From NCBI RefSeq assembly GCF_003634935.1, contig NZ_RBXO01000001.1:3311501-3375500 (forward strand): a stretch of 64,000 bases of DNA, in the 5' to 3' direction. Shown in pieces: positions 30,647 through 49,158 of the stretch. The stretch is from Saccharothrix australiensis (GTDB taxonomy: Bacteria > Actinomycetota > Actinomycetes > Mycobacteriales > Pseudonocardiaceae). The notes beneath the pieces were generated by a model, which saw only the letters and a list, made by a program, of their open reading frames with translations, was not told where the DNA came from and searched no databases. Every line of letters starts with the position of its first letter. Within the stretch, counting starts at the first letter, position 1. Position numbers and translations under genes: made by a program.

Positions 30647-31672
30647 TCAGCGGCGTTCCGACAGCGGATTCGTCACGCCCGTCAGGTCTTCGAGATGTGC
30701 GAGCACCGCGGCGGGGGTGAAATCGTCCCGCTGGTAGCGGTACGACATGTTTCCCCAGGTGTCGTACCCCACCATGGTCGCTTTGAGCCCTTCGACGTAC
30801 AACTCGACCACCTCGCCGTAGGTGTCCCGGCCGAGGGCGTCGACGACCTGCGGCAGTTCGCTTTCGAGCCGCAGGAAGTCGCGCAGCTGGTCGTGCGCGT
30901 CGGCGCGCACCCGTTCCGCGGCTTCCGCTACCGGGATGCCCAGGGTGCGACTGACGACGAAGACGATGTTGTCCGTCCTGTTGTCGGCTCCCGCCTCTTT
31001 TTCGTAGGATTGCAGGTCGTTACTCATCGATGTCGTGCGGGCGATGTTCTTCCTCATCAGCCACAGGTGTGGATGGAACTTGATCTCCTCCGGCACCTCG
31101 TACTCCCCGATCCGCTCGGTGAGGTCGAGGGTGGACTGCACACCCACGTTGAAGTGTCGGCACTGCTTGTACTCGGTCAGGTCGTAGGTGGTCCCGAGCT
31201 TGCGGTGGGCAGCTTCGAAGAACTGGCCGTTGAAAAAATCCCGCCAATGCGCGGCCATCCGCTGGCACCAGCCGGCGGACATGCCCTGGACGACCCTGGA
31301 CCAGATGTCGGCGAAGGCGACGTAGATGGGCTCGGTTCGATCCGTGACACCGCCCGTGAAGGTTATCCGGTTCAAGGGCTCGACCACGCGGAGGACGGCT
31401 TGCGGGTCCCATCCCAGCGCCACGTCGAACTGGTCGTCGAGGAAGAAGTAGAAGGTCATGAGGTCGACCGCCAACTCGACGCTTCGTTGATTGGCCTGCG
31501 CCCAGTGCAGGCAGGCCAGTTCGGGCATCATGGCGGCGTGCCAGTAGTCGGCCGCCTCATCGCTCTTCACCATGCCCATGCGGCGTGCCCAGCGGATGCC
31601 GTGGTAACGGGCCTGCTCGACGAAGGGCGCCATGCGGACCTCGAACGGGATTTCCAGTCCTGAAACGGGCAT
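30647..31672 (-). CDS. Class I terpene synthase
   Basis: 341 residues from ATG 31672 (GGAG upstream). Bacterial class I fold with both metal motifs intact: DDQFD at 79-83 and NDLQSYEKE at 218-226. It also has an Arg-Tyr pair near the C-terminus (MSYRYQRDD) and the WSRVVQGMSAGWCQRM helix typical of the family. It ionises an allylic diphosphate and cyclises it; chain length cannot be told from sequence. It follows ispG on the same strand across 226 nt, in a locus with dxs, ispH and a GGPP-type synthase, so a C20 or C15 product is plausible. This is the only stand-alone synthase here with complete motifs. Confidence 0.93.
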   Translation of the reverse strand: MPVSGLEIPFEVRMAPFVEQARYHGIRWARRMGMVKSDEAADYWHAAMMPELACLHWAQANQRSVELAVDLMTFYFFLDDQFDVALGWDPQAVLRVVEPLNRITFTGGVTDRTEPIYVAFADIWSRVVQGMSAGWCQRMAAHWRDFFNGQFFEAAHRKLGTTYDLTEYKQCRHFNVGVQSTLDLTERIGEYEVPEEIKFHPHLWLMRKNIARTTSMSNDLQSYEKEAGADNRTDNIVFVVSRTLGIPVAEAAERVRADAHDQLRDFLRLESELPQVVDALGRDTYGEVVELYVEGLKATMVGYDTWGNMSYRYQRDDFTPAAVLAHLEDLTGVTNPLSERR

Positions 31673-31898: not shown

Positions 31899-33083
31899 TC
31901 ATGCAGTATCCCCACGGGTGCCACTCGAATTCGGCCGAACTCGCGTCGGCGGCCCCGGCGCGGGGGTGTCACCGCCCTCCTCGGCGATGCGCATGGCCTC
32001 CTCGATGAGGGTCTCCACGATCCGGTGCTCGGGCACGGTCTTGACCACCTCGCCCTTGACGAAGATCTGGCCCTTGCCGTTGCCCGACGCCACACCCAGG
32101 TCCGCCCCCCGCGCCTCACCGGGACCGTTGACCACACAGCCCATCACGGCGACCCGCAGCGGCACCTCCAACCCCTCCAGACCCGCCGTGACCTGCTCCG
32201 CCAACGTGTACACGTCCACCTGGGCCCGACCACAGGACGGGCAGGACACGATCTCCAGCTTGCGCGGACGCAGGTTGAGCGACTGCAGGATCTGGTGACC
32301 GACCTTGACCTCCTCCACCGGCGGCGCGGACAACGACACCCGGATCGTGTCCCCGATGCCCTGCCGCAACAACGCACCGAACGCCACCGCCGACTTGATC
32401 GTGCCCTGGAACGCCGGACCCGCCTCGGTCACCCCCAGGTGCAACGGGTAGTCGCACCGCTCGGCCAACAGTTCGTAGGCCCGCACCATGACCACCGGAT
32501 CGTTGTGCTTCACACTGATCTTCAGGTCGTGGAAGTCGTGCTCGGCGAACAACGACGCCTCCCACAACGCCGACTCCGCCAACGCCTCCGGGGTCGCCTT
32601 GCCGTGCTTGGCCAGCAACCGCGGGTCCAACGACCCCGCGTTCACCCCGATCCGGATCGGCGTGCCCCGGTCACGCGCCGCGGCGGCGATCTCCCGCACC
32701 TTGTCGTCGAACTTCCTGATGTTGCCGGGGTTCACCCGGACCGCCGCGCACCCCGCCTCGATCGCCGCGAACACGTACTTGGGCTGGAAGTGGATGTCCG
32801 CGATCACCGGGATCTGCGACTTGCGCGCGATCTCCGCCAACGCGTCCGCGTCGTCCTGCGACGGGCACGCCACCCGCACGATGTCACAGCCCGCCGCCGT
32901 CAACTCCGCGATCTGCTGCAACGTCGCGTTCACATCCGCCGTCACGGTCGTCGTCATCGACTGCACCGACACCGGGAACTCACTGCCCACCCCGACCGAC
33001 CCGACCATCAACTGCCGGGTCTTGCGCCGCTCCGACAGCACGGGAGGCGGCAATGCCGGATCGGGCAGCGGAACGGACACCAT
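31899..33083 (-). CDS. ispG: 4-hydroxy-3-methylbut-2-enyl diphosphate synthase
   Basis: 394 residues, normal for the bacterial two-domain enzyme. It converts MEcPP to HMBPP with a 4Fe-4S cluster, the penultimate MEP step. Seen: [19 protein letters not shown] at the start, the TIM-barrel segment [14 protein letters not shown], and cluster ligands in SCPSCGR and [14 protein letters not shown] 33083 has a GGAGGG site. A TGTTGAACCGGTTGAA repeat lies about 120 bp upstream and probably belongs to its control region. The gene is a locus-borne MEP copy; whether the genome also has a housekeeping ispG cannot be told here. Confidence 0.95.
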
Positions 33084-33239: not shown

Positions 33240-34583
33240 CTACCCGGCACGTGGCATCGCTTGGCTCAGAACTCGTTCCACGGCGGGGTTCCCGCGATAG
33301 CGCTGCAGTCTCCTGCGCAGCACCATGATGGCGCGGTCCACTCGACCGGAGTGCATGTACGGATAATCTTCGAGAAAACCTCGCCAGGCCGCACAGGCGT
33401 TCTCGACTTGTCCTTGCGCCAACTGCGAATCGGCCAGCAGGTGCGCGGTGAGCATCCGGGACCGGCGCTCCCTCCCCGGCCGATGCCCCAGCGACCGGAG
33501 CAGCCAGCGCTCGGACTCGCGGTAGTTCTTCGACAGCAGCATCGCCTGGCCGACGCGATAGGCAAGGTCGGCCTGGGGGGTCTGGCCCGGCCGACTGACG
33601 GTGTCGATCTTCTCCACTTGCCGCTCCGCGTGGGAGAGGAAGGTGGTCGCCTCCCTGCTGCAGGCGAGAGCGGCGTAGGCCACCGCGGCCTGCCCCAGGA
33701 ACGCGGCATGGGTTTCGGGTGGCGCCACGCCCTTCGTCCGGTAGAGCGCCGCGCTCACCAGTTGAGCAGCCCGGGAGTGGTGGCCGAGGAAGCTCGCCTG
33801 GATGCCCATGTAGAACAGGGTTTCGCCGTGGCCCAGGGTGTCGCCTGCCTCCTCGGCCAAGCGCAGTGACACCCGGTAGTACCGTTGGGCGAGGTTGCAG
33901 TGCAGGCTGTCGAAGCACTTGAACCCCATCAGGCGCGTCAGGGCCGACGCCGCGGCCAGCAGTTCTCGGCGCTCCTGCCCGCCGGACGACGACCGCAGCC
34001 AGGTCAGGACGTCGGTGGCCAGGTACGCCTTGAGCGCGGACCGGCCGATGTCGCCCCCGAACGCCTGATCGGTCGAGGCGAAGGCGGCTGTCATGGCGAC
34101 GAGTGCCGCCGTGTGGCCGGTGGGGGACTGCGGCACGCCGTGGTGGTGGCTCGGCCGCTCGGAGCCGGTCGGGTGCCACGGGCCGGTCACGGCCCAGTCG
34201 AGCCGGAACGGCTGCTGGTACAACCGCGATCGACGTACGGGGTCCAGGTCAGCCGTCACCAGGGCGTGCAGCGCGGTGGTGCCGGACGGCTCGTCACAGG
34301 TCGACGTCGTGGCGTCGGGGGCGGCGTCGGTCATGCCGATGTCGGCGGTGCTGACGAAACGGTCCAGGCGGCGTGACAGCGCCTCGGCGATGAATGCGGC
34401 GACGTGGGGCCGCGGTCTGGTGCCCCACAACCAGTGGGACACGGTGGTCCGGTCGTAGCGCAGGGTGATTCCGGATTCGGCCGCGACCCTGTTGACGGCC
34501 AGGGCAAGATTGTGGTTGGTCCATCTGGCCTCGTTCACAAGGGCGCGTAGGAGGGAATTCTCGGTGCGGTTCCTCGGTGACAT
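33240..34583 (-). CDS. HTH transcriptional regulator with TPR-like domain
   Basis: 447 residues from ATG 34583 with GGAG upstream. The N-terminal 80 residues hold an XRE-like helix-turn-helix (NHNLALAVNRVAAESG, then RYDRTTVSHWLWGTRPRP). The rest is helical and repeat-like (AYLATDVLTWLRSS, YYRVSLRLAEEAGDTLGHGETLFYMGIQASFLGHHSRAAQL, ESERWLLRSLGHRPG), resembling tetratricopeptide repeats. Regulators of this shape are common in actinomycete specialised-metabolite loci and may sense peptides or partners. It sits between ispG and the divergent ABC1 gene, flanked by the two best TGTTGAAC repeats, so it is the prime candidate to control the isoprenoid locus. Confidence 0.78.
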   Translation of the reverse strand: MSPRNRTENSLLRALVNEARWTNHNLALAVNRVAAESGITLRYDRTTVSHWLWGTRPRPHVAAFIAEALSRRLDRFVSTADIGMTDAAPDATTSTCDEPSGTTALHALVTADLDPVRRSRLYQQPFRLDWAVTGPWHPTGSERPSHHHGVPQSPTGHTAALVAMTAAFASTDQAFGGDIGRSALKAYLATDVLTWLRSSSGGQERRELLAAASALTRLMGFKCFDSLHCNLAQRYYRVSLRLAEEAGDTLGHGETLFYMGIQASFLGHHSRAAQLVSAALYRTKGVAPPETHAAFLGQAAVAYAALACSREATTFLSHAERQVEKIDTVSRPGQTPQADLAYRVGQAMLLSKNYRESERWLLRSLGHRPGRERRSRMLTAHLLADSQLAQGQVENACAAWRGFLEDYPYMHSGRVDRAIMVLRRRLQRYRGNPAVERVLSQAMPRAG

Positions 34584-35179: not shown

Positions 35180-36664
35180 ATGGACGTGGCGGGCAACATC
35201 GCCGCGGGCGCCGTCTCGCGCCAATCGGCGGGGTCGGAACCGACCCAGGACACGCCCGTCGAGGACAAGGAGCGGCGGCGAGCGCGGGCCGTCCGGGTCG
35301 CGCTCGAGCGGTTGGGCCCGTTCTACGTCAAGCTCGGCCAGATCCTGTCCACCCGGCCCGACCTCGTCTCCGATGTGCTGATCGACGAGTTGGAGAAGTT
35401 GCACGACGACGTGACGCCCAGCCCGTTCGGGGAGTTCGCCGCGATCCTGGACCAGGAGATACCCAGTTGGCGCCTGCGGCTCAGGACCATCGACGTCGTC
35501 AAACCCCTGGGGTCCGCCTCCCTCGCGCAGGTGTACCGGGTCACGATGGACGACGGTGGCGACGCGGTGGTGAAGATCCAACGCCCCCGGATACGGTCGC
35601 AGGTCCTCCAGGACATGAAGAAGATGCGCCGGGTCGCCCGACTCGTGGGCCGGTTGGCACCGCGTTTCAACGAACTGATCGACCTCGACGCGATGCTGCA
35701 GGTCATCTTCAACGGTATGCAGCCGGAGCTGGACTTCACCCTCGAAGCGCAGAACATGGTCGACGCCCGCCGGGTGGTCAAGGAGTTCAAGCACCTGACC
35801 GTGCCCAAGGTGATCGACGCGACCCCGAGGGTGTTGGTGCAGACATTGGCCCCCGGTGTGTCCATCGGTGACGCCGACCCGAACGCGTTCTCCGGGAAGG
35901 AGCGCAAGAAAATCGGTCGGGACCTCCTCGCCTTCATGTACCGCGGCTACTTCTCCGAACACGTGTTCCACGCGGACCCGCACCCCGGCAACATCTTCGT
36001 GCACCCCGGGAAGAAAGCCAACATCATCGACTGGGGAATGGTCGGGAAGATCGACCGCCACCTGGGCATGGTGCTCATCCTGGTACTGCTCAGCATCGCG
36101 CAGAACGACGCGCCGGCGACCGCCCGCAGCTGGATCGAGCTCGGGCACGCCACCTCGCGGGCCGACCTGCACGGCTTCTCCGGCGACATGTCGATGCTCA
36201 TCCCGAAGATCTCCTCGGCCTCGCTGGAGGAGTTGAACTTCGGGGTCACCCTCAGCACCATCCTCATGTACGCGACCAGGCGCGGCGTCCACACCAGCCC
36301 GCACATCTCCCTGCTGGGCAAGTCGTTCGCCAACGTCGAGGGCTCGGTGCGCAACCTGGCTCCCGAGCTGTCCATGGTCGACGTCTTCGAGGACGCGATG
36401 GTCGAGATCATGGGCGACCTCTTCTCCGAAGTCCTGTCCAAGAAGCAGGCGGCGCGGTTCGCGCTGGACCTCGTGATCGGCGGCACGAGCGCGCTGGACT
36501 ACCTGCGGAAGATCACTCGCGATCTCAACAACCGCGACGTCACCATCCAGCTGGGGGTGCTCAAGGGCAGGGGCTACCAGGAGGTCGGCCACGCGGCGAA
36601 CATGATGTACATCGGCCTCGGCATCCTGATCGCCTGGGTGTGGACGCTTCGCACCCGCCGATAG
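35180..36664 (+). CDS. ABC1/UbiB-family atypical kinase
   Basis: 494 residues from ATG 35180; the frame is open upstream to 35081 but has no better start. Family marks: RVALERLGPFYVKLGQILSTRPDLV (KxGQ motif), the Ala-rich loop LGSASLAQVYR, VVKIQRP (VAIK-like Lys), ELDFTLEAQNM, FHADPHPGNIFV (catalytic loop) and IDWGMVGKID (metal motif). The C-terminus has a hydrophobic segment, MMYIGLGILIAWVWTL. UbiB/COQ8 ATPases support membrane isoprenoid and quinone metabolism, probably by extracting lipophilic intermediates. Its place inside a terpenoid locus fits a role in handling hydrophobic terpene intermediates, which is inference. Confidence 0.9.
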   Translation: MDVAGNIAAGAVSRQSAGSEPTQDTPVEDKERRRARAVRVALERLGPFYVKLGQILSTRPDLVSDVLIDELEKLHDDVTPSPFGEFAAILDQEIPSWRLRLRTIDVVKPLGSASLAQVYRVTMDDGGDAVVKIQRPRIRSQVLQDMKKMRRVARLVGRLAPRFNELIDLDAMLQVIFNGMQPELDFTLEAQNMVDARRVVKEFKHLTVPKVIDATPRVLVQTLAPGVSIGDADPNAFSGKERKKIGRDLLAFMYRGYFSEHVFHADPHPGNIFVHPGKKANIIDWGMVGKIDRHLGMVLILVLLSIAQNDAPATARSWIELGHATSRADLHGFSGDMSMLIPKISSASLEELNFGVTLSTILMYATRRGVHTSPHISLLGKSFANVEGSVRNLAPELSMVDVFEDAMVEIMGDLFSEVLSKKQAARFALDLVIGGTSALDYLRKITRDLNNRDVTIQLGVLKGRGYQEVGHAANMMYIGLGILIAWVWTLRTRR

Positions 36665-36748: not shown

Positions 36749-37732
36749 TCACCAGTCGTCGACGGCGTCCGCCGCACACCGGGGTCGCGGGGGCAGCCGG
36801 GGGAGCCCCGAGCGGCGCAGCCAGGCGATGTGGCCGCTGACGCAGTCCCGCAAACGCGACAACGTCGACCGGAGCGCGGTGTCCGCCCGTCGGTCGAGGA
36901 ACTCGCAACCTCTGACGAACGCCGCCATGATCTCGTCGCGGCGCTGGACCGTTCGGTAGATCGCGACGTCCCACGGGTGCCCCTCGTGCCTCTCGATGCA
37001 GGTGGCGGCATTGAGCGGGAAAGGGCCGCTGCGCAACACCAACGGGTACAACGCCACATCGTGGTCCAGGCCGATGACGTCGACCGCGGCCAGGGCGAGT
37101 CGTCGTGCGGCGAGCGTCGCGGATGACCCGAGCCCCGGGTCGGACCGGCGGGGCAGGGTGAGGACGCAGAGCGCGGCGATACCGGACCGCCGCCGGGTCA
37201 CGTAGTGCCCGAAGCCGGGAACCCCGTGTCGGGAGCGGCACCCGTACTCCCAGCGCCGGGCCACGACGTGGTTGCGCACGCGGGCGGTCCAGGCGTCGAC
37301 GGCGGACGGGTGCAACCGCTCGACGCGTCGCGACAGGTCCGCCAGCGCCCGCGGCAGAGGACCGCCACCCGCCCCTCGTGCCCCGGGGCGCTGGAGCACG
37401 CCGAGCAACCGCTGGGCCAGGGCCGGGAAGTCCTCCACGTCGGGGCGGGAGAAGTCCTGGCGCGCGGCGGCCTCCAGGGCGAAGGACCACTCGACGAAGT
37501 CGCTCGCCAGTTGGGCGGTCCCGGCTCCACCGGCGGGGTCGAGATAGGGGCCGAGGCCGGACACGCCCCTCGGCAGGGCCGTGTCCGCGAACACCGTCGA
37601 GGACGCGGCCAGGCCCATGTCCCGCGCCCATCGGGCACTGCCGTCGACCAGTTGCGCCGCCAGCGGGTGCGGCCTCGCGGGGAACGGGCACCAGAACGGG
37701 GGACGTGGAGGTGTGCCGCGGGCGTGGGTCAC
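36749..37732 (-). CDS. Terpene-synthase-like protein lacking both metal-binding motifs
   Basis: 327 residues from a GTG that overlaps the dxs stop (GTGA). The overall pattern is class I terpene synthase: [16 protein letters not shown] at the N-terminus, a WARDMGL helix, and a late helix [18 protein letters not shown] where the NSE triad should be. The Asp-rich motif position reads [11 protein letters not shown] instead of DDxxD, and the NSE position lacks the Ser and Glu. With both magnesium sites gone, normal diphosphate ionisation is unlikely. The frame is open and coupled to dxs, so the protein is probably made. Possible roles are a non-catalytic partner, a protonation-type cyclase, or slow decay. 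Family call is moderate because similarity is remote. Confidence 0.62.
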
Positions 37733-39609
37733 GACCGCGCGGTTCGGCGGGCCGACCGCAGGGGGTGGAGGCGGTCATGCGTCTGGACCGCCGTGCCGCG
37801 CAGGTCCGCGGTACCGGGGCGCAGGCTCGTCAGCACGGTCCGGACGATCGACCGGGCGTCCAACCCCGCTCGGGCCAGCAGGGCGTCGCGGGAATCGTGG
37901 GGCAGGAACGCGTGCGGCAACGACACCGTGCGCACCCTGCCCGGACGGGGGGACGCGGCGGCTTGGTGCGCCAGGCGCGCGCCGAACCCACCGGTCTCGA
38001 CGTTGTCCTCCACGGTGACGGTCAACTCGTGTGCGGCGGCCATCCGCGGGAGGCACGGGTTGAGCGGCACGGCCCACAACGGGTCCACCACCGTCGCGCC
38101 GATGTCGTGCCGGGCCAGCAGTTCGGCGGCCTCCAGGCAGACCCGTGCCAGGGGGCCCAAGCCGGTCAGCAGCACCCTGGCGTCCCGCGCGGTCCGCAGG
38201 ACGTCGATGCCGTCGACTTCCGCGACCGCGGGGATGTCCGCCCCCACCGCACCCTTGGGGAAGCGCAAGGCCGTCGGGCCGGTGTCGGTGGCCGTCGCGG
38301 CGTCGAGCAGGGTCGCCAGACGAGCGGCGTCACGGGGCACGGCGACCCGCAGACCGGGAACCGCGGCCAGCAACGACAGGTCCCACACGCCGTGGTGGCT
38401 GGCCCCGTCCGGGCCCGTGACGCCCGCGCGGTCGAGCACGAACGTCACCGGGAGGCGATGCAGCGCCACGTCCATCAACACCTGGTCGAAGGCCCGGTTG
38501 AGGAACGTCGCGTACACCGCGACCACCGGGTGCAGGCCCGCCATCGCCAGGCCGGCGGCGCTGGTGACCGCGTGCTGCTCGGCGATGCCGACGTCGAAGA
38601 CCCTGTCCGGGAACTCCCGGGAGAAGCCGAGCAGCCCGGTCGGACGCAGCATCGCCGCGGTGATCGCGACGACCTCCGGTCGCCGGCGCCCGATGTCGAC
38701 GATCCGCTCGGCGAACACCGACGTCCAGTCGCGCGGTGACACCGATGTCGGCCTCCCGGTTCGGGGATCGACCACGCCCACGGCGTGCAGGCGGTCCGCC
38801 TCGTCGGTTTCCGCCGGCGCGTACCCCTGCCCCTTGACCGTCACGCAGTGCACGACCACCGGGCACCCCAACGCCGCGGCCCGGCGCAGCGCGGCCTCGA
38901 CCGCGTCGACGTCGTGGCCGTCCACCGGCCCCAGGTAGGCCAGTCCCAGGTCCTGGAACAGGTTCGGCCCGCTGTGCCGATCCCCGGCCGCGCGCCTCAG
39001 CTCGGCGAGGTGTCGCGCCAGACCACCGCGGGTGGGCGCGTACGATCGGCCGTTGTCGTTGAGCACGACGATCACCGGCGCCGCGTCGTCGGTGCCCAGG
39101 TTGTTCAACGCCTCCCAGCCCATGCCCCCGGTCAACGCGCCGTCACCGACGACCGCGACCACGCGGCGGTGCGACTGGCCGCGCAACGCGAAGCCCCGGG
39201 CCAAGCCGTCCGCGTAGGACAAGGCGGTCGAGGCGTGCGAGTTCTCCACGGCGTCGTGGTCGGACTCGCTCCTGCTCGGGTAGCCCGACAGGCCACCGCC
39301 CTGACGCAGCCGCCCGAACCCGGCGCGACGTCCGGTGAGGATCTTGTGCACGTACGCCTGGTGACCGGTGTCGAACACGATCCGGTCGGAGGGCGAGTCG
39401 AACACCCGGTGCAGCGCGATCGTCAACTCCACCACACCGAGGTTGGGCCCCAGGTGGCCGCCGGCGCGGCTGACCCGGTCGACCAGGAACAGGCGGATCT
39501 CCTCGGCCAGCGACGCCAAGCGGTCCCGCGGCAGCGCGCGCAGGTCCGCGGGGCTGTCGACGCCCGCCAGGACGGAGGTGGTCGGTCGAACGGCCGGGCT
39601 GGTGGTCAT
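37729..39609 (-). CDS. dxs: 1-deoxy-D-xylulose-5-phosphate synthase (copy A)
   Basis: 626 residues. It condenses pyruvate and glyceraldehyde 3-phosphate with ThDP, the first MEP step. Seen: [51 protein letters not shown] (ThDP loop), [13 protein letters not shown], the transketolase core [31 protein letters not shown] with its Glu, and the C-terminal [10 protein letters not shown] region. The ATG overlaps the ispH stop (ATGA) and its own stop overlaps the terpene-synthase-like start (GTGA), so ispH-dxs-TS-like are translationally chained. A second dxs lies at 47365-49158. Confidence 0.95.
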
Positions 39610-40874
39610 GAGGTGGCTACCTTGCGTGGCAGGGCGAACTGGATGTCCTCGCGGGTGACCTGGCGGTCCTCCACGTCCACCGGTCCCAGGCCCGCCAAGG
39701 CGGCCACCACCTCCTCGACGATGCCGCCGGGAGCCGAGGCCCCCGCGGTGAGCCCGATCGCCTCCGCCCCGACCAGCCATTCCCATCGGATGTCCGTCGC
39801 GTCGTCGACCAGGTGGGCGGGTGTGCCGTCCCGGCGGGCGAGTTCCACCAGCCGCTGCGAGTTGGAGGAGTTGACCGATCCGACGACCAGCATCACGTCG
39901 GCGTCGCGAACGACGGCCCGGAGCGCGTTCTGCCGATTGGTGGTGGCGTAGCAGATGTCCTCGGAACGGGGTCCTCGGATGGCGGGGAACCTCTCCCGCA
40001 GGGCTCCGATGACCTCCTCGGTCTCGTCGACCGCCAGGGTGGTCTGCGTCAGGTAGGACACCCGCGCCGGATCGGGAACCCGCAGGGTGGCCACGTCGGC
40101 GACGTTCTCCACCAGCACCACGCGGCCGGGAGCTTCTCCCAGGGTGCCTTCGGTTTCCTCGTGCCCGGCGTGCCCGATGAACACGACCGTGTCGCCGCGC
40201 TGCGCGAAGCGCCGCGCCTCCGCGTGGACCTTGGTCACCAGGGGACAGGCGGCGTCGACGACGTCCAGCCCCCGGGCCAGCGCCGCGGAGTGCACCGCCG
40301 GGGAAACACCGTGCGCCGAGAACACCACCGGCACGCCGGGGGGAACGGTGTCGATCTCGTCCACGAAGACCACGCCCCGTCGTTCCAGGTCTCGCACCAC
40401 ATGGACGTTGTGGACGATCTGCTTGCGCACGTAGACCGGCGGACCGTGTTTGGCCAACACCTTCTCGACGATCTCGATCGCCCGCTCCACGCCCGCGCAG
40501 AACGAACGGGGGGAAGCCAACAGCACCCGCCGCGGCCCGAACACCCCGGCCGCGGTGCGCAACGCCGACCGTGCCGCGGCCCTGGCGCCAACGGCGTGGT
40601 CGGCAACCGCCACGGCGAGGCCGTGCCCGTCGACAGGGGTCCTGGCGACCAGCAGGGTGGCCGCGTCCCCGTCGCCTGGCCGGTCGGTGGCCACCGCGCC
40701 CAGCCTGGCGTCGAACCCCTGCCTGCGCAGCTCACCCCACAGCAGCCCGGCGGCCGGGCAGTGCACCGGTTCGCCACCCGGGGTGAAGACTGCCGTGGCC
40801 ACCACGACCTCGCTGTCGACCACCCCGTCGATCGGCGTCTCGGTGATGTGGTGGTCAGGCGTTCGGGCGCTCAT
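39606..40874 (-). CDS. ispH: HMBPP reductase with an N-terminal extension
   Basis: 422 residues; usual IspH is 300-330. The catalytic part begins near residue 115 ([19 protein letters not shown]) and holds the three cluster Cys in [20 protein letters not shown] and [19 protein letters not shown] and [12 protein letters not shown] are also present, so it should reduce HMBPP to IPP and DMAPP. The first 110 residues are extra ([21 protein letters not shown] and onward) and look like a small alpha/beta domain of unknown role. It precedes and overlaps dxs. The GGPP-synthase gene ends 171 nt upstream on the same strand. Confidence 0.93.
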
Positions 40875-41045: not shown

Positions 41046-42083
41046 TCAGCCGTCGCGGTCGGTGATCAGGCGCGAGATGGCGACCAGGACCCGCACGGCG
41101 CGCGGGTCGGCGTCGACCGCCTCCAGGCACGACAACGCCTCCTGAAGGTGCCGGTCCGCGCGCGCCCGTGCCCAGGACCTGCCCCCGGCTTCGTCGACCA
41201 GCTCGGCCACCGCGACGAGCTGGTCATCCGACAACGCGGCCGGGCTGCCGTACAGCCGGGCGAGCTCCCGCCCCGCCGCGGTGCCGCCGGACAGCGCCGC
41301 CACCACCGGGAGCGACTTCTTGCGGGCCCGCAGGTCCGACCACACCGGCTTGCCGGTGCGGTCGGGCCTGCCCCAGATGCCCAACAGGTCGTCGACGTAC
41401 TGGAACGCCATCCCCAGGTGACGTCCGAAGTCCCCCAACGCCGCGACCTCGTCCGGCCCGCCATCGCCGTACATCGCCCCCAACGTGCACGCGCACCGGA
41501 TGAGGGATGCGGTCTTGCCCTCCGTCATGATCAGGACGTCGTCCGACGCCACGTCCTGCCGGGATTCGAAGCTGATGTCCAACATCTGCCCGTACAGCAT
41601 CTGCTGCACCGTGTCGCCCAACACCGCCAGCGCACGCGTCGCCACGGGATGTCCACCGGAGAGCAGCACCTGCTGTGCCGCCATCAGCATCACGTCACCC
41701 GCCAGGATCGCGGTGGGGATGCCGAACACCGACCACACGGTTCCGCGGTGCCGCCGCCGCTCGTCGCCGTCCATCACGTCGTCGTGGACGAGCGAGAAGT
41801 TGTGCACCAGCTCCACCGCCACCGCCGCGTCGGCCGCCGCCTGCTCCGCCGCACCCAGCGCCTGCGCCGCGGACAGCGCCAACGCCGGCCGCACGGCCTT
41901 GCCGCCACCGGCCGACACGGGCTCCCCGGCGGCGTCACACCAACCGAGGTGGTAGCCCACGACGGTCCGGAACGCCGGGCAGAACTCGTCCAACGACGTC
42001 CGCATCCGCGGCTCGACCACTTCCCACGCCCGGCGCAGCGCCGACAACGCTTCCCGATGTGTCGAGACACCGCTCGTCGTCAC
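41046..42083 (-). CDS. Polyprenyl (geranylgeranyl-type) diphosphate synthase
   Basis: 345 residues from GTG 42083 with GAGGAGG. It is a trans-prenyl chain-elongating enzyme. First Asp-rich motif: FSLVHDDVMDGDERRRHRG; second: AFQYVDDLLGIWGRPDRTGK; Lys-rich GKTASLIRCACTLGA between them. This matches actinomycete GGPP synthases, but chain length is not proven. It would feed the neighbouring class I synthase. The long dyad at 42192-42240, about 110-160 bp upstream, is the strongest inverted repeat with the TGTTGAA core and probably regulates it. Confidence 0.9.
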   Translation of the reverse strand: MTTSGVSTHREALSALRRAWEVVEPRMRTSLDEFCPAFRTVVGYHLGWCDAAGEPVSAGGGKAVRPALALSAAQALGAAEQAAADAAVAVELVHNFSLVHDDVMDGDERRRHRGTVWSVFGIPTAILAGDVMLMAAQQVLLSGGHPVATRALAVLGDTVQQMLYGQMLDISFESRQDVASDDVLIMTEGKTASLIRCACTLGAMYGDGGPDEVAALGDFGRHLGMAFQYVDDLLGIWGRPDRTGKPVWSDLRARKKSLPVVAALSGGTAAGRELARLYGSPAALSDDQLVAVAELVDEAGGRSWARARADRHLQEALSCLEAVDADPRAVRVLVAISRLITDRDG

Positions 42084-43076: not shown

Positions 43077-43877
43077 TCAGTGTCCTGCCGGCCCCGAACT
43101 CCCTCCCGGCCCTCGCGCGGACTCCGCACCCTGGGAGTGCGCCGCTCGCGCTCGTCCGCGTTCGCCGCCGCGCATACGCACGACCAGGCCCAGGTGGAAC
43201 GCGGCGAAGACGACCGAGGCGGCTGCGAAGTAGCCGAGCAGCAAGCGATCGGTCAAGTGCAGTTCGGAGGGGGCGAACAGGAAAGCGGTCGGTCCGGTGC
43301 CGGCGATGATCAGCCACAGGCCGGCCGTGACGACCGACTGCCCCTCCAGCGTGCCGCGGTGGTACAGCATGATCGGATAGCACACCGAGACGATGAAGAC
43401 GACGAGCGTCGATGTGTAGGCGCCGTGCGTGTCGTGCAGGCTTCGACTGATCACGGGAGCGATTCCGGCGCCGATCACCATGGCCAGGACGAACAGCCCG
43501 CGGAAGGTTTTCGCCGGGATTCGGGGGAAGTGCCGCGGCCCGTACACGATGATCTGGTACACGAAGATGACATCAGGGATCACGAACGCGATGCCGAGCG
43601 CCCACATCGGCACGGCGGGAAACCAGCGGTCGTACAGATCGAGGGCGATGGACACGTCGAGCGAGAAGAACACGCAGACCGAACCGATGGGCACGCTGTA
43701 GGTGCGATCCCGGAAGCCGGCGCGGCTGGAACTCAGTCCCCACAAGACTGCTGCCGCGAGGGCGAGGACGAGCAATGTCACGAACAAGGGGGCCTCCTTC
43801 GCGTCGTATGGGCAGAAAACCGGGCGGTGGTCGTCGCTGGGTGCCCCTTCGGCGGCTACCGGCCGCCCTCCGATCAT
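43077..43877 (-). CDS. Seven-helix membrane protein, candidate Pyr4/DmtA-type terpene cyclase
   Basis: 266 residues from ATG 43877, which overlaps the terpene synthase stop (ATGA). Seven hydrophobic segments are visible, with the second starting in a GFRDRTYSVPIG stretch and holding SLDVSIALDLYD, the third ending VFVYQIIVYGPRHFP-like, and the seventh beginning LHLTDRLLLGYF. The size, seven helices, the GF-x-D-x-TY-x-P loop and the polar residues after helix 2 resemble Pyr4/PaxB-type integral membrane cyclases, which protonate polyprenyl epoxides or olefins through acidic residues. Here the usual Glu after helix 2 would be Asp. No FAD epoxidase is nearby, so direct olefin protonation would be needed. 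The family match is by pattern only; an unrelated small membrane protein remains possible. Confidence 0.55.
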   Translation of the reverse strand: MIGGRPVAAEGAPSDDHRPVFCPYDAKEAPLFVTLLVLALAAAVLWGLSSSRAGFRDRTYSVPIGSVCVFFSLDVSIALDLYDRWFPAVPMWALGIAFVIPDVIFVYQIIVYGPRHFPRIPAKTFRGLFVLAMVIGAGIAPVISRSLHDTHGAYTSTLVVFIVSVCYPIMLYHRGTLEGQSVVTAGLWLIIAGTGPTAFLFAPSELHLTDRLLLGYFAAASVVFAAFHLGLVVRMRGGERGRARAAHSQGAESARGPGGSSGPAGH

Positions 43878-45970
43878 CGGGTTCCGGCCGTGTAGCGATT
43901 CGTGATGTCGTACCAGTCGTAAGAGCCCCGCACCCAGTGGCGAAGGGACTCGACGTGCCGCCTGACGACGTGGCACGTGTCGCGGGCAAGGCTCAGGCGG
44001 TCGCAGAACGACCCGAGCCGGTCGCCGAGGGCGCAGAACTCGTGGACGTGGCGGTCCGCCTGCTGCGTGACGACCTGCATCGCTTGAGCAGAGGTCAGCT
44101 CCTGCTCATCCATGATGAGCGATACGAGGTTGACGCGCTGTGCCGCCACGTCCTGGTCGAACGACCGGATGTCGTTGGTCAGGATGATGTGGCGGGCGGC
44201 GTGGTGGCGCAGGGCGGCGAGGTAGCCGGCGTGCCACACCTCGACGGGCACCTCGAACCCGCCCGTGCGCTCGGCGACCGCGAACATCGCGTGGACGGAG
44301 ATCGACATGTCCTTGATGCGGAGGTGCTCGGAGCTGGTCGGGACACGGCCTTCGCGGCGGTCGGCGGTCTCGGTGTAGTTGCCGTGGAGGTATTCCTGCC
44401 ACAGCCAGGCCATGCGGTGGCACCAGGCGTCGGACATCCCGGTGCGGAGCCGGTCCCACAGGTCGGAGAAGGCCGCTGTGAGCGGGTGGGTCGGCGTGAG
44501 CGGGTGGTGCAGGATGCTCACCAACTCCGAGGTCACTGCGGGATCGACCGTGCCGTGGGCGGCGTTGTCCATGTAGTCGTCGTACTGGAAGACCCATCCG
44601 TAGACGTCGGAGGACAGGAGCGGACTCCCGCTGCCCGGGTCGCAGTAGGAGGCGATGTCCGGGACACGGGTTTTCAGGTACCGGTCGGTGGCTGCGCCAG
44701 GGGACAGAAGGCCGTGGCGGTGCAGCCACGACAGGTGCGCTTCGCGCACGTCGTCCACGACGGGCGGGTGTTCCTGCCGGGGCAGCGGCATGGCCGGCGG
44801 GGCGGGGTGCGACATGTCGTTCTGCTTTCGTCCGATGCCGAGGTTCACGTCGACGGCGAGGAAGTCCGAGGGGCGCGAGGTGGCACGAGGTTCCCCGCGG
44901 TCTCCTGGCCGTCCCGCATCGCCCCCCGGCCGCCGGGTGACGGTGAACTGCAGGAGCTCGGCCAGGTCCTCGCGCACCCGCGCGGGCACGGCGACGGTCT
45001 CCAGCACTCCCAGCGCCAGGCCCAGGTGTGTTCGGGCGACTTCCTCGGCGGCGGCCTTGCCCCCGAGCCGTTCCAGGAGGTCGGCGGCGGCCTGGAGATC
45101 CGGTTCGTGGAGCGTCTCCTGTGCCAGGAGGGCGCGGAGCCGCGGGACCTCGGCGTGCCCGGACTGCACGGCGGCGATGACCGGGAGGGTGTTCTTGCGC
45201 AGCCGCAGGTCCTGGAAGCCCGGTTTGCCGACCAGGGCGGCGTTGCCCCAGATGTTCTCCAGGTCGTTGACGGCTTGCCAAGCGGTGCCCGCGTGGTGGG
45301 CGGCGCGGCGCAGCGCCTCGCCGTCGTGGACGGGCTTGCCGCACAGGATGGTGCCCAGGAGCGCGCCTGTCCCCAGGAGCGCGCCGCCTTTTCCGCGACA
45401 GCAGTCCAAGTAGGCGTCCAGCCGGATGTCCTGCGCCGGAGCGCGGTCGAAGGTCGGTTCGCTCGCCCAGGCGTGGATCATGTGGTCCACGCCGTCGGTG
45501 AACACCCGCACCGCCGTCGCGGCATTCGCGGTGGCGGCCAGGACTCGGACGGCCTCGTTGAGGAGCGCGTCGCCCGCCACGATGGCGGGCCCGGCGCCGA
45601 AGGCGAGCCAGGCGGTGGGCCGGTCACGCCGGACGACCTCGTCGCCGTCGGCGATGTCGTCGTGCAACAGGGAGAAGTTGTGGGTGAGCTCGACGGCGAC
45701 GGCGCCGGGGACCGCGTCGGCCGGGTCTCCTCCGCTCGCCTCGGCGGCCAGCATCACCAAGGCCGCCTGCAGCGAGCGGCTGCCGCGGCCACGGGTCGGA
45801 TTGCCTTCGACGTCGTTCCACCCGAAGTAGTAACCGCAGATCCTGGCCAGGTCGGGGTGGAGTCGGCTCAGCGCCTCCTCCAACCCGCTGCGTGCGAAAT
45901 CACGAGCGCGGTGGATGACATCGGGCAGGGGCGGCTGGCTGACCGTGCTGGGGGTGGTCACGAAGTCCAT
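43874..45970 (-). CDS. Prenyl diphosphate synthase fused to class I terpene synthase
   Basis: One open frame of 698 residues from ATG 45970 (AGGAAGG upstream). Residues 1-340 are a trans-prenyl synthase: first Asp-rich motif DDIAD (104-108), GDALLNEAV, KGGALLGTGALLG, second motif degenerate as NDLEN (235-239). A linker of about 45 residues rich in R, G, D and P follows. From residue 386 (MSHPAPP) comes a class I terpene synthase with DDYMD (464-468) and NDIRSFDQD (599-607). No stop separates them and the internal ATG (44815) lacks a ribosome site, so a true bifunctional protein is likely, with the prenyltransferase first. That is the reverse of fungal chimeric synthases. The C-methyltransferase upstream suggests that a methylated diphosphate is its product or substrate. 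Confidence 0.85.
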   Translation of the reverse strand: MDFVTTPSTVSQPPLPDVIHRARDFARSGLEEALSRLHPDLARICGYYFGWNDVEGNPTRGRGSRSLQAALVMLAAEASGGDPADAVPGAVAVELTHNFSLLHDDIADGDEVVRRDRPTAWLAFGAGPAIVAGDALLNEAVRVLAATANAATAVRVFTDGVDHMIHAWASEPTFDRAPAQDIRLDAYLDCCRGKGGALLGTGALLGTILCGKPVHDGEALRRAAHHAGTAWQAVNDLENIWGNAALVGKPGFQDLRLRKNTLPVIAAVQSGHAEVPRLRALLAQETLHEPDLQAAADLLERLGGKAAAEEVARTHLGLALGVLETVAVPARVREDLAELLQFTVTRRPGGDAGRPGDRGEPRATSRPSDFLAVDVNLGIGRKQNDMSHPAPPAMPLPRQEHPPVVDDVREAHLSWLHRHGLLSPGAATDRYLKTRVPDIASYCDPGSGSPLLSSDVYGWVFQYDDYMDNAAHGTVDPAVTSELVSILHHPLTPTHPLTAAFSDLWDRLRTGMSDAWCHRMAWLWQEYLHGNYTETADRREGRVPTSSEHLRIKDMSISVHAMFAVAERTGGFEVPVEVWHAGYLAALRHHAARHIILTNDIRSFDQDVAAQRVNLVSLIMDEQELTSAQAMQVVTQQADRHVHEFCALGDRLGSFCDRLSLARDTCHVVRRHVESLRHWVRGSYDWYDITNRYTAGTR

Positions 45971-46051
45971 TCCCTTCCTGTCGGTGGTCGTGGATCGTTG
46001 TCGCGCCGATCCGACGGCGGCGGCCGAACGACGCGAGGGCGTCCGCGATGC

Positions 46052-46090
46052 CGCGGGACCGGCCCGAGTCCGCACCCGGCCGGTCCCGCG
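46052..46090 (-). terminator. Hairpin between the methyltransferase and the fusion gene
   Basis: CGCGGGACCGG (46052-46062), 17-nt loop, CCGGTCCCGCG (46080-46090): a perfect 11-bp stem in the 194-nt gap. It may be a terminator or attenuator that lowers expression of the downstream prenyltransferase-synthase gene. Confidence 0.5.
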
Positions 46091-46164
46091 ACGGTGGCAC
46101 GGGCGGACATCGCCCCGAGCAAAGGAAGTCCTCCGCTCCCGGAACGGACGCCGCGGACGGGCAC

Positions 46165-47055
46165 TTACGAGGTCTGCGAAGCTTCGTCCGGTGCCGCCTG
46201 GTCGTTCTTGCGGGAGGCGATGCGGATGTAGTTGACGCGGTCGCTGAGGTAGCCGCTCAGGTACACCTGCTCGATTCCCGTGGCCAGTCGCGAATGGCTG
46301 CGCAGCTCCCAGTAGGGGATGGCGGCCTTGGTCAGGTCGTCGACCTGGTAGGGGATCAGCCCGGCGTCGACGAGGGCCCTCAAGTAGGCCACACGGCGGT
46401 GGGTGTGGCAGTGGTAGTGCTGGTCGATGGCCTCCGCTTCCGGGGGACGCGGTGCGATGGCGTCGTTGTTGCACCAGGTCGTCAGGACGTAGCGGCCACC
46501 GGGTTTGAGGATGCGGGCGAACTCGGCGAACGTCGTGTTCAGCTCGACGTACATGGTCGTCTCGTTCGTCACCACGTAGTCGAAGGACGCGTCCGGGAAC
46601 TCCGTCGACACCATGCTCCGGTCGTGGAAGCGCACCCGGTCGGCACAGCCTCGGCGTTCCGCCTGTTCACGGGCGAAGCCGTTCTGGTAGCTGGAGATGT
46701 TGACGCCGTCCACGCGGCAGCCGAACGCGCGGTGGAGGAGGAAGGCGGTGCCGCCGCGCCCGGACCCGGCGTCCAGGATGCGCGCTTCGGGCGCGACGCC
46801 GCCCAGCGCCTCGACCAGGATGTCGACCTGACGGGTTTCCATGCGGTGCATCTCGGCGTTGATGGCTTGCTCGCGCTCGTCGTCGGGCAGTTCCAGGACT
46901 CGGCGGTCGAAATCGCCCACGGCGAAGTGGTGGTGGTAGAAGCCGTCGATGGAGCCGAGACCGAGGTTGATGAAGTCCGTGCGCTTGTTGTCGTAGTAGG
47001 CGAAGGCCGCCTCTTCCAACGGGTTGCGCATCTTGAGGGTGGGGCGGGTGTCCAT
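46165..47055 (-). CDS. Prenyl diphosphate C-methyltransferase (GPP 2-C-methyltransferase family)
   Basis: 296 residues from ATG 47055 with GGAG. SAM motif I is DAGSGRGGTAF (about 95-105). The N-terminal AYYDNKRTDFINLGLG then DGFYHHHF (20-44), the NNE-type VTNETTMYVEL, and the late IPYWELRSHSRLATGIEQVYLSGY all match geranyl diphosphate 2-C-methyltransferase of 2-methylisoborneol synthesis. It should add a methyl group to an allylic diphosphate (GPP, or possibly FPP or IPP). No 2-MIB-type synthase is seen beside it; the partners here are a prenyltransferase-terpene synthase fusion and a membrane cyclase. A non-canonical C11/C16-type skeleton is therefore predicted. Confidence 0.88.
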   Translation of the reverse strand: MDTRPTLKMRNPLEEAAFAYYDNKRTDFINLGLGSIDGFYHHHFAVGDFDRRVLELPDDEREQAINAEMHRMETRQVDILVEALGGVAPEARILDAGSGRGGTAFLLHRAFGCRVDGVNISSYQNGFAREQAERRGCADRVRFHDRSMVSTEFPDASFDYVVTNETTMYVELNTTFAEFARILKPGGRYVLTTWCNNDAIAPRPPEAEAIDQHYHCHTHRRVAYLRALVDAGLIPYQVDDLTKAAIPYWELRSHSRLATGIEQVYLSGYLSDRVNYIRIASRKNDQAAPDEASQTS

Positions 47056-47161: not shown

Positions 47162-47368
47162 CAACCGCTTCCCGGTCACGGCGAGTGCGTGCTGGAGGAG
47201 CGTCTCGACCATCGCGGAGTCCGCGATGGCGGCGATCACCTCGCCCCTGACGGACACGACAGTGGCTCGGAGCGGGTGCGGAAAGCCGCCGACCACCACC
47301 GACCCGATCCGGACCCGGCGACTGAGCCGTCGGACGTCGCGCACGTCGAGGGGCGGGGGCCTGGTCAC
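47162..47368 (-). pseudogene. ispG remnant (N-terminus joined to C-terminus), coupled to dxs
   Basis: The frame starts at GTG 47368, which overlaps the dxs stop (GTGA). Its first 69 residues resemble IspG with the middle missing: RRVRIGSVVVGGFP corresponds to the [16 protein letters not shown] start, and VSVRGEVIAAI...MVETLLQHA corresponds to the tail [10 protein letters not shown]...IVETLIEEA of the intact copy. About 320 residues, including all Fe-S cysteines, are gone. The frame stays open to 46667 and overlaps the methyltransferase, but similarity ends near 47162. It cannot be an enzyme. It is either decaying or kept as a short coupling frame. Confidence 0.68.
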
Positions 47369-49158
47369 CTGCCGCTCCCGGACGGTGCGCCGGCGGTGAG
47401 GCGGGACAGCTCCGCGCGGGCGGTGGCCGCGATGGCGGTTCCGGTCAGGCCGGCCCGGGTCAGGACCTGCTCGCGGGTGCCGTGCGCCAGGAACGAGGTC
47501 GGCAGGCCCACCACGTGCACGCGGTGGTGCGCGGCGGCCTGCGCCAGGCGGGAACCGATGCCGCCGGCGGCGACCCCGTCTTCCGCGGTGACGGTCACCC
47601 GGTGGCGCGCGATGGACCGGAGCAGGGGATCAGGGGGCGGCCAGGCCCAGCGGGGGTCGACCACCGTGACGCCGACGCCCTGCTCCGCCAGCAGTGTCGC
47701 GGCCCTCAGGCAGGCCGGCGCGGTCGCGCCGATGGCGACCAGCAGGACGTCCAGGGGGCGCCGGTCGGTGCGGTGCAGGACGTCCATGCCGCTCATCCGC
47801 GTCAACGCCGGGATGTCCTCCGTGGCCGGTTCCTTGGGGAAGCGCAGCGCCGTCGGGCCGGCGACGTCGACGGCCTCGTGCAGCAGTTCGCAGAGCCGCT
47901 CGGGATCGCGCGGGCAGGCCACCCTCATGCCCGGTACCGCGGCCAGCAGGGTGAGGTCCCACATGCCGTGGTGGCTGGGGCCGTCGGGCCCGGTGATCCC
48001 GGCCCGGTCCAGGACCAGGGTGACCGGGAGGCGGTGCAGGGCGATGTCGAGCAGGAGCTGGTCGAAGGCGCGGTGCAGGAACGTGGAGTACAGCGCCACC
48101 ACCGGGTGGGTGCCGCCGGTGGCCAGTCCGGCGGCCGAGGCGAGCAGGTGCTGCTCGGCGATGCCGGAGTCGAACACGGCCCCGGGCCGCGAGCGGGACA
48201 GCGTGCCGAGGCCGGTGGGCAGGCGCATCCCGGCCGTCAGCGCCACCACGTCCGCGCGAACCTGCGCGATCGCGGCGATCTCCTCCTCGAAGACGTCGGT
48301 CCAGGTCGGCTTCGGGGGCTTGGCGGGCCGTCCGGTAAGGGGGTCGATGATGCCGCAGGCGTGCATGTGATCGGATTCGTCGGCTTCCGCGGGAGGGTAG
48401 CCGTGGCCCTTGCGGGTGATCGCGTGCACGATCACCGGTCGCCGCGCACCCGCCGCTCGTCGGAAGGCCGTGCAGAGGGCGTCGATGTCATGGCCGTCGA
48501 CCGGGCCGAGGTAGTCCAGCCCCAACGCGGTGAACAGGTTCCCCGCTCCCGCTTCCCGCCGGCGGAGCCGGCGCAGGTGGGCCGCGACACCCCCGACGGT
48601 CGGGTCGTAGGAGCGGCCGTTGTCGTTGAGCACCACGATGACCGGGCGATCCGGCGCGGAGGCGAGGTTGTTGAGCCCTTCCCACGCGACACCACCGGTC
48701 AGGGCGCCGTCGCCGAGTACCGCGATCACCCGCCGATCGGTCTCGGCGCGCAGCGCCAGGACCTTCGCGATGCCGTCGGCCCACGCGAGGCTGACCGAGG
48801 CGTGCGAGTTCTCCACCCAGTCGTGCGGCGACTCGCCCCGGTTGGGGTAGCCGGAGAGACCACCGGCCTGGCGCAGCGTCGTGAACTCCAGCGCGCGCCC
48901 GGTCAGCGCCTTGTGCGGGTAGGTCTGGTGACCGGTGTCGAACACCAGCACGTCCTGCGGTGAGCGGAACACCCGGTGCAGGGCTATGGTCAACTCCACC
49001 ACGCCCAGCCCTGCTCCCAGGTGGCCACCGGTGGCGGCCACGCGGTCGATGAGCAGGGATCGGACCTGCGCCGCCAAACCGGGGAGCCGGTCGGCGTCCA
49101 GGGCGGCCACATCGGTCGGACGGGTGATCCCGGCCGGCGTCACGGGAGTGGCGGTCAC
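47365..49158 (-). CDS. dxs: 1-deoxy-D-xylulose-5-phosphate synthase (copy B)
   Basis: 597 residues from GTG 49158, overlapping the stop of the ispH remnant. All features are intact: [92 protein letters not shown], and a full C-terminal domain. It is about 30 residues shorter than copy A and clearly a paralogue or xenologue. It sits in the order ispH-remnant, dxs, ispG-remnant, mirroring ispH-dxs in half A. A second first-step enzyme should raise MEP flux for the half-B terpene genes. Confidence 0.94.
   Translation of the reverse strand: MTATPVTPAGITRPTDVAALDADRLPGLAAQVRSLLIDRVAATGGHLGAGLGVVELTIALHRVFRSPQDVLVFDTGHQTYPHKALTGRALEFTTLRQAGGLSGYPNRGESPHDWVENSHASVSLAWADGIAKVLALRAETDRRVIAVLGDGALTGGVAWEGLNNLASAPDRPVIVVLNDNGRSYDPTVGGVAAHLRRLRRREAGAGNLFTALGLDYLGPVDGHDIDALCTAFRRAAGARRPVIVHAITRKGHGYPPAEADESDHMHACGIIDPLTGRPAKPPKPTWTDVFEEEIAAIAQVRADVVALTAGMRLPTGLGTLSRSRPGAVFDSGIAEQHLLASAAGLATGGTHPVVALYSTFLHRAFDQLLLDIALHRLPVTLVLDRAGITGPDGPSHHGMWDLTLLAAVPGMRVACPRDPERLCELLHEAVDVAGPTALRFPKEPATEDIPALTRMSGMDVLHRTDRRPLDVLLVAIGATAPACLRAATLLAEQGVGVTVVDPRWAWPPPDPLLRSIARHRVTVTAEDGVAAGGIGSRLAQAAAHHRVHVVGLPTSFLAHGTREQVLTRAGLTGTAIAATARAELSRLTAGAPSGSGR

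Follow-up and report, generated by a model that had tools for sequence, protein, structure and literature searches.

The window analysed here, a 64,000-nucleotide stretch of Saccharothrix australiensis (G000:C1:3311501-3375500; genome 7.86 Mb; same family as Amycolatopsis azurea), carries three neighbouring minus-strand genes that encode, in order of transcription, a homologue of prenyl-diphosphate C-methyltransferases, a prenyltransferase fused to a terpene synthase, and a seven-helix membrane protein that distantly resembles the Pyr4-like cyclases (Table 1). The trio is embedded in a larger terpene cluster, at approximately 30.6-49.2 kb of the window, which also contains two DXS genes, IspG, IspH, a geranylgeranyl diphosphate (GGPP) synthase and two further terpene-synthase-like genes. 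The original prediction had described the trio as an operon in which a geranyl diphosphate (GPP) 2-C-methyltransferase homologue and two different cyclase types produce a methylated terpene whose carbon number is not a multiple of five.

The fused synthase probably starts at the ATG at 45970, which gives a protein of 698 residues. A single frame matches both polyprenyl_synt (PF00348; 122.5 bits, 2.2e-35) and Terpene_syn_C_2 (PF19086; 112.3 bits, 3.3e-32) without a stop codon between the domains, and the predicted fusion was thereby confirmed at the level of the reading frame. Because of the missing stop, an artefact of frame calling was rejected, although an internal start at 44815 is possible. 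The G+C content at third codon positions (GC3) reaches 0.91 in both domains and drops to 0.78 in the 41-residue linker, where codon periodicity is weaker. The synthase domain scores over the PF19086 cut-off and has intact metal-binding motifs (DDYMD and NDIRSFDQD). In the prenyltransferase domain the first Asp motif, DDIAD, is kept, the second reads NDLEN, and GKGG occupies the place where a KT-type motif is expected. An aromatic residue five positions before the first Asp motif goes with chains of up to C20; the focal domain has such a residue, which suggests, by this rule, a product of up to C20.

No other fusion was found in the 24 genomes of the genus (E 1e-60) or in the 393 of the class (E 1e-70, a limit that would miss the three found in the family). 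In the family, at least 3 of 389 genomes (G616, G576 and G578; E 1e-58) encode one, 31-33% identical to the focal protein along both domains; the class and family figures are lower bounds, as two candidates were scored per genome. These three fusions directly follow an encapsulin shell gene. The proteins at L089:9497-11602, L090:9066-11222 and L091:9159-11315 (701-718 aa) are fusions directly behind family 2 encapsulin shell genes, and are perhaps encapsulated bifunctional cargo. The focal protein itself reaches 269.9 bits on the encapsulin cargo prenyltransferase model NF041169, for which the cut-off is 450. The focal cluster and the encapsulin-linked copies represent different settings, so bacteria have fusions of this kind in no fewer than two contexts. 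No bacterial case was recognised in the literature found on such fusions, nor does one appear in the available passages of an encapsulin survey (PMC8346489).

The methyltransferase retains the S-adenosylmethionine (SAM) domain and, in the alignment, the NE(S/T)(S/T)MY stretch of the solved GPP methyltransferases. Its score on the GPP 2-C-methyltransferase model NF041943, however, is 322.4 bits, under the curated cut-off of 400. The scores on this model were bimodal: the focal enzyme and the seven clade members that were scored (L020 and L048_2 were left out) fell between 314 and 350, the A. azurea relative reaching 316, and five others fell between 497 and 535. Four of the high-scoring enzymes come from the 2-methylisoborneol (2-MIB) part of the methyltransferase tree, and the fifth, L131, is absent from it. 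In this tree (33 tips after removal of 11 duplicates from 44 sequences, and without monMT and Lon23) the 2-MIB type and the focal type separated with local support of 1.000, and the focal enzyme grouped with the A. azurea gene (0.998). Its closest relatives are those of A. azurea (G482; approximately 75% identity) and G477 (approximately 77%).

Gene context divides along the same line. A 2-MIB synthase and/or encapsulin match accompanied 21 of 21 2-MIB-type loci and none of the eight loci of the other type (29 best loci outside the own genome, each of 3.5-3.9 kb; Fisher p 2.3e-7, uncorrected for relatedness). Neither a 2-MIB synthase nor a shell gene was matched in the window at E 1e-8, and the idea that the locus is a 2-MIB locus was rejected on this basis. 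Elsewhere the genome encodes a second methyltransferase copy over the GPP cut-off (L057, 509 bits), a 2-MIB synthase homologue and two shell genes (at 5.78 Mb); L057 has neither a 2-MIB synthase nor an encapsulin in its 20 kb stretch (within ~10 kb).

The characterised A. azurea enzyme azuMT shares its operon with three genes described as prenyltransferases and yields almost exclusively (E)-4-methyl-isopentenyl diphosphate from isopentenyl diphosphate (IPP), leaving GPP and dimethylallyl diphosphate (DMAPP) unmethylated (PMC9401056). The amount of product in vitro was very low, in vivo only (E)-4-methyl-isoprenol was formed, and GPP, assayed with seven enzymes, was methylated by none of them (PMC9401056). 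We found two A. azurea genes of the family at E <= 1e-50, in a search that scored six candidates per genome and on which the following elimination rests. One, with a score of 535 on the GPP model, is preceded by two encapsulin shell genes and followed by a 2-MIB-type synthase; the other (L047) has three genes after it. Because the former copy sits in a 2-MIB locus and the L047 copy precedes three genes, we infer, by elimination only, that the L047 gene is azuMT. As its nearest relative is, on this elimination, azuMT, the focal methyltransferase most likely methylates IPP at C4. The GPP 2-C-methyltransferase assignment was not upheld: the score is under the cut-off, the clade is separate, and the nearest relative is the inferred IPP methyltransferase, which does not act on GPP (PMC9401056).

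The three genes behind the L047 methyltransferase are one terpene synthase and two prenyltransferases; identity with the focal domains is 53% for the former and 43% and 60% for the latter two. The first of them (L047:10538-11623), directly after the presumed azuMT gene, is by its PF19086 match (1.5e-28) a terpene synthase of class I, and the description of the azuMT operon as lacking a terpene synthase needs correction accordingly. In A. azurea the related domains are encoded separately, ordered methyltransferase, terpene synthase, prenyltransferase, prenyltransferase, and the fusion would therefore have been accompanied by a rearrangement in one lineage or the other. The A. azurea locus also encodes diphosphomevalonate decarboxylase, mevalonate kinase, type 2 IPP isomerase and 3-hydroxy-3-methylglutaryl coenzyme A (HMG-CoA) synthase, all over their NCBIfam cut-offs, and a flanking HMG-CoA reductase identified by Pfam. 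The same core thus stands beside two supply pathways, the methylerythritol phosphate (MEP) pathway in the window and the mevalonate pathway in A. azurea. A contig pattern scan, from which the own genome was possibly left out, gave 83 pattern hits and one locus, that of A. azurea.

We also compared 50 distinct prenyltransferases, drawn by similarity to these proteins and therefore informative about association, not frequency. Six of them, namely the focal domain, both A. azurea enzymes and one each from G531, G700 and G603, formed one clade (support 0.978, midpoint-rooted). Every member lies within 2.4 kb of a non-2-MIB-type methyltransferase, and ND replaces DD in the second Asp motif of five of the six, as compared with 0 of the 44 others. 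(The second motif of the L021 row at 3450 is unreadable, and this gene is represented by its complete copy, L050 at 11503.) These results suggest that a prenyltransferase lineage travels with non-2-MIB-type methyltransferases. DD-motif prenyltransferases also stand beside such methyltransferases, with two cases in G603 (one of them in the clade) and one in G531; to these come the GGPP synthase of the window, at a distance of 4.1 kb, the two halves of the G477 fusion next to its second methyltransferase, and a broken G477 copy.

Several loci seen in the course of these comparisons are of interest in their own right. In G603 (L050:9566-16088) a methyltransferase of the same clade is accompanied by two prenyltransferases, a squalene-hopene-cyclase-like protein, a terpene-synthase-like protein (23.3 bits, just under the cut-off of 23.7) and a P450; this is likely a homoterpenoid cluster with two cyclase classes, and it illustrates two cyclase types better than the window does. 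In G477 (L048:13561-17733) a second methyltransferase precedes a 742 aa protein in which two prenyltransferases are fused, and a squalene/phytoene-synthase-like gene; the same region has partial copies of the focal operon genes: a synthase remnant (L048) and methyltransferase and prenyltransferase pieces (L097). L131 and L113-L117, from genus g170, show a methyltransferase next to a DD-type prenyltransferase, a pair of another kind, and the one methyltransferase scored among these, L131 (G735), is over the GPP cut-off.

The membrane protein scores 24.7 bits on the Pyr4-like model PF25129, under the cut-off of 27, as compared with 84.7-111.2 bits for five homologues. It is the sole match of the model in its own genome (25.4 bits, E 3.6e-5); at a lax E <= 10, sub-cut-off matches appeared in 2 of 14 control genomes (E. 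coli and B. subtilis). Among 296 genomes of the class the Pfam model picked out five with Pyr4-like proteins, and the same five were returned by a protein search (6 of 345 including the own genome). Homologue L092 lies near IspH, DXS, IspG and a GGPP synthase, and L093 near a GGPP synthase, on a contig that holds only the end of IspG. An AlphaFold2 model built from six sequences (mean confidence, pLDDT, 80.9) has seven helices, and hydropathy agrees with this number if the two overlapping last segments are counted as one. Of the description as a seven-helix Pyr4-like protein, then, the helices stand, while the family assignment stays below its cut-off.

The best fold matches of this model in the PDB are KDEL receptor, cystinosin and SWEET chains (Z 12.0, root-mean-square deviation (rmsd) 3.9, 178 residues aligned; a Z under approximately 13 in helical proteins may reflect a common arrangement only). 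A control model of L094 (L094:9358-9966), which is over the Pfam cut-off, matched the same fold families (Z 15.2, rmsd 3.9, 184 aligned). The two sets of matches agree with a shared fold as far as the models go, both having been made from the same six sequences. A transporter reading of the KDEL-receptor and SWEET matches was not favoured because L094, a Pyr4-like protein, matches the same folds with a higher Z. The membrane protein gave no match at E <= 1 in a sequence search of the PDB and none at E <= 0.001 with Foldseek alone. As a side observation, models of the Pyr4 family fit the KDEL receptor/cystinosin/SWEET fold over nearly their whole length, possibly a hint to the origin of these cyclases.

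In the Pyr4-like cyclase DmtA1, the E60A/Q and Y33A/F mutants are dead and D214A is nearly so (PMC6173783). With the DmtA1 numbers placed on alignment columns by spacing, without the DmtA1 sequence, the membrane protein carries Asp where the catalytic Glu is expected, Ala in place of the second Asp and a gap at the essential Tyr, whereas all five homologues are intact. Cyclase activity of the known type is therefore unlikely for this protein, judging from the alignment, although the Asp could act as an acid in principle. The claim of two different cyclase types is weakened, as all three residues tested in DmtA1 are changed or missing.

The methyltransferase and the synthase are separated by 194 nt containing a stable G+C-rich hairpin (-51.4 kcal/mol, z -2.73; 1 of 200 shuffles was as stable). 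Terminators of actinobacteria often have no T runs, and the two genes may therefore not always be transcribed together. Three terminator-like sites were predicted (2.2 expected), one of them between the methyltransferase and the synthase; the sequence past the membrane gene also folds well (z -2.11), and a promoter scan found none. The ATGA string described as an overlap of the last two genes is literally present at 43877-43874. A better-looking start for the membrane protein is, however, the TTG at 43787, which follows GAAGGAGG and lies 86 nt past the stop codon of the synthase; the overlap may therefore be incidental.

We propose that the locus is probably an MEP-boosted homoterpene cluster in which C4-methylation of IPP feeds the fused synthase. 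The extra DXS, IspG and IspH copies, by their family membership, would raise the supply of IPP and DMAPP. The methyltransferase would then place a methyl group on C4 of IPP to give, as with its characterised relative, most likely (E)-4-methyl-IPP. From this the prenyltransferase domain would build a methyl-branched allylic diphosphate, and the fused class I domain would cyclise the chain, yielding a terpene that carries at least one additional carbon. The membrane protein would be a diverged relative of the Pyr4 family, probably without the known protonation chemistry or performing it with Asp. The methylated, non-C5-multiple terpene of the original prediction is thus retained, by inference, as the best reading. 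Possible, and somewhat doubtful, is that the cluster contains an assembly-line enzyme dedicated to a non-C5 unit, with methyl-IPP taken preferentially by a co-evolved ND-type prenyltransferase and channelled to the fused cyclase, the Pyr4-like protein being a membrane partner or a cyclase of altered chemistry.

Several points weigh against methylation of IPP as the step that feeds the fused synthase. The equation of azuMT with the L047 gene depends on elimination, and given the very low yield of azuMT in vitro, IPP may not be its true substrate. The ND motif and GKGG could mean that the prenyltransferase domain is weak or dead and that the separate GGPP synthase does the work. The sample of 50 prenyltransferases is non-random, and adjacency to a methyltransferase is not special in itself, as five g170 genomes have a DD-type prenyltransferase within 260 bases of one. 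The hairpin, finally, speaks against a simple shared transcript. Doubt about the substrate leads to one alternative, in which the methyltransferase acts on a longer prenyl diphosphate (another carbon of GPP, farnesyl diphosphate (FPP) or GGPP), in the manner of BezA and the sodorifen FPP methyltransferase, with its product passing to the fused synthase. The low yield from IPP would be explained, only IPP, DMAPP and GPP are named as substrates tried in the available passages on azuMT (PMC9401056), and other prenyl-diphosphate methyltransferases use GPP at C6 or FPP (PMC10881772). We think that this is unlikely given the exclusive formation of (E)-4-methyl-isoprenol by azuMT in vivo and the failure of all seven enzymes on GPP (PMC9401056); moreover, a prenyltransferase lineage linked to methyltransferases fits methylation of the building block better.

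Alternatively, methyl-IPP might be made as proposed, with the Pyr4-like protein serving, in line with the original prediction, as an active second cyclase for what the fused synthase or the GGPP synthase makes. The seven helices, the best PDB matches shared with an over-cut-off Pyr4-like protein (Z 12.0 vs 15.2), the position of the gene right after the synthase, and the isoprenoid supply genes and GGPP synthases near L092 and L093 are all in keeping with this. The changes at three positions that 5 of 5 homologues conserve, and at which DmtA1 mutants are dead or nearly so (PMC6173783), make it improbable in our view; the lack of a match in the 19.9 kb A. azurea stretch at E 1e-6 points the same way but is a weak test for a divergent protein. 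A still less probable scenario is that the cluster is decaying and yields no methylated terpene, the fusion having arisen through accidental loss of a stop and both the Pyr4-like protein and one terpene synthase being dead. Decay could account for the absence of both metal motifs from the terpene-synthase-like protein at 36749-37732, the weaker codon periodicity of the linker and the partial G477 copies, but it would hardly have left intact frames in the methyltransferase and both fused domains, a GC3 of 0.91 in each of the latter, and both metal motifs in the synthase domain. We thus retain IPP C4-methylation ahead of the fused synthase as the preferred reading.

The remaining genes of the cluster are listed with the trio in Table 1. 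Transcription on the minus strand runs from the second DXS through the methyltransferase, fused synthase, membrane protein, GGPP synthase, IspH, first DXS, degenerate terpene-synthase-like gene, NsdA-family regulator and IspG to the intact terpene synthase. Strong DXS matches occur at three places in the genome, two of which are the cluster copies, together with two weak partial ones. No P450 was present among the genes scanned at 29.6-51.9 kb. The terpene-synthase-like gene between the first DXS and the ABC1 kinase has no recognisable DDxxD/NSE motifs, yet its frame is open. Two features outside the cluster were also seen in the window. At 25707-29128 a BrxC/D-like ATPase and a TerB_N/TerB/TerB_C protein perhaps form a defence-type island that adjoins the terpene cluster. 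A single open frame of 3057 aa at 7593-16766 matches two ketosynthases, two acyltransferases and a thioesterase and carries a C-terminal HxlR-type helix-turn-helix domain (residues 2903-2991); it appears to be a polyketide synthase joined to a regulator, either by fusion or by read-through.

Table 1. Genes of the terpene cluster, with positions in the window.
Feature	Position	Strand	Remarks
SAM-dependent prenyl-diphosphate C-methyltransferase (METHYLTRANSFERASE), probably IPP C4-methyltransferase	46165..47055	-	296 aa
Fused prenyltransferase (~residues 1-345) and class I terpene synthase (~386-698)	43874..45970	-	41-residue linker
Seven-helix membrane protein, putative divergent Pyr4-family relative without the known catalytic residues	43077..43787	-	
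Second DXS (1-deoxy-D-xylulose-5-phosphate synthase)	47365..49158	-	Upstream of methyltransferase
Separate GGPP-synthase-like polyprenyl synthase	41046..42083	-	Motifs DDVMD / DDLLG
IspH (4-hydroxy-3-methylbut-2-enyl diphosphate (HMBPP) reductase)	39606..40874	-	Frame as listed; match from residue 117
First DXS	37729..39609	-	
Terpene-synthase-like protein, degenerate metal-binding motifs	36749..37732	-	PF19086, 38.5 bits
ABC1-kinase gene	35180-36664	+	Interrupts minus-strand row
NsdA-family regulator	33240..34583	-	Homologues also near A. azurea and G477 copies
IspG (GcpE)	31899..33083	-	
Class I terpene synthase	30647..31672	-	Motifs intact (DDQFD, NDLQSYEKE)

As far as the literature searched goes, the novel elements are the bacterial fusion within an IPP-methyltransferase set, the methyltransferase-linked prenyltransferase clade, the re-read A. 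azurea operon and a Pyr4-family relative without catalytic residues. Prenyltransferase-terpene synthases (PTTSs) have been said to occur only in fungi (PMC8307374); the fusions described here place them in bacteria, with the opposite domain order. If the proposal is correct, the cluster offers a ready-made, perhaps channelled way of making terpenes with unusual numbers of carbons, a prenyltransferase lineage has been selected for methylated IPP, and the products of IPP methyltransferase operons become directly testable.

The closest known system is the azuMT operon of A. azurea (Drummond 2022, PMC9401056), which, if the elimination is right, shares with the focal cluster the methyltransferase, terpene synthase and prenyltransferases, at the identities given above, as well as an NsdA-family regulator and isoprenoid supply genes alongside. 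It differs in its separate genes, in its mevalonate-type supply and in having no Pyr4-like match (E 1e-6). An operon of Streptomyces monomycini combines an IPP methyltransferase with a putative prenyltransferase and a putative terpene synthase; it is likened here by description, as the same trio of functions, and no fusion is mentioned in the available account (PMC9401056). With these two operons known, the original statement that no pathway with this set had been described was too strong, the Pyr4-like gene remaining as the addition. The 2-MIB pathway (GPP 2-C-methyltransferase and 2-MIB synthase, often with a family 2 encapsulin) likewise uses a methyltransferase of the homologous family to make a methylated terpene, but its enzyme belongs to a clade separate from the focal one. 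Fungal chimeric PTTSs such as PaFS also join a prenyltransferase to a class I synthase in one chain. In these the synthase domain is N-terminal and the prenyltransferase C-terminal, whereas the bacterial focal protein has the prenyltransferase first and the synthase second. With the Pyr4-like cyclases (Pyr4, DmtA1, XiaE/H and ZigF) the membrane protein has in common the seven helices, the best fold matches and a weak sequence match, and it departs from them at all three mutation-tested residues. The longestin pathway, also likened by description, offers a parallel in that methylation of IPP by Lon23 feeds a prenyl chain (PMC9401056, PMC10881772); its product, unlike that proposed here, is a meroterpenoid with two methylated units.

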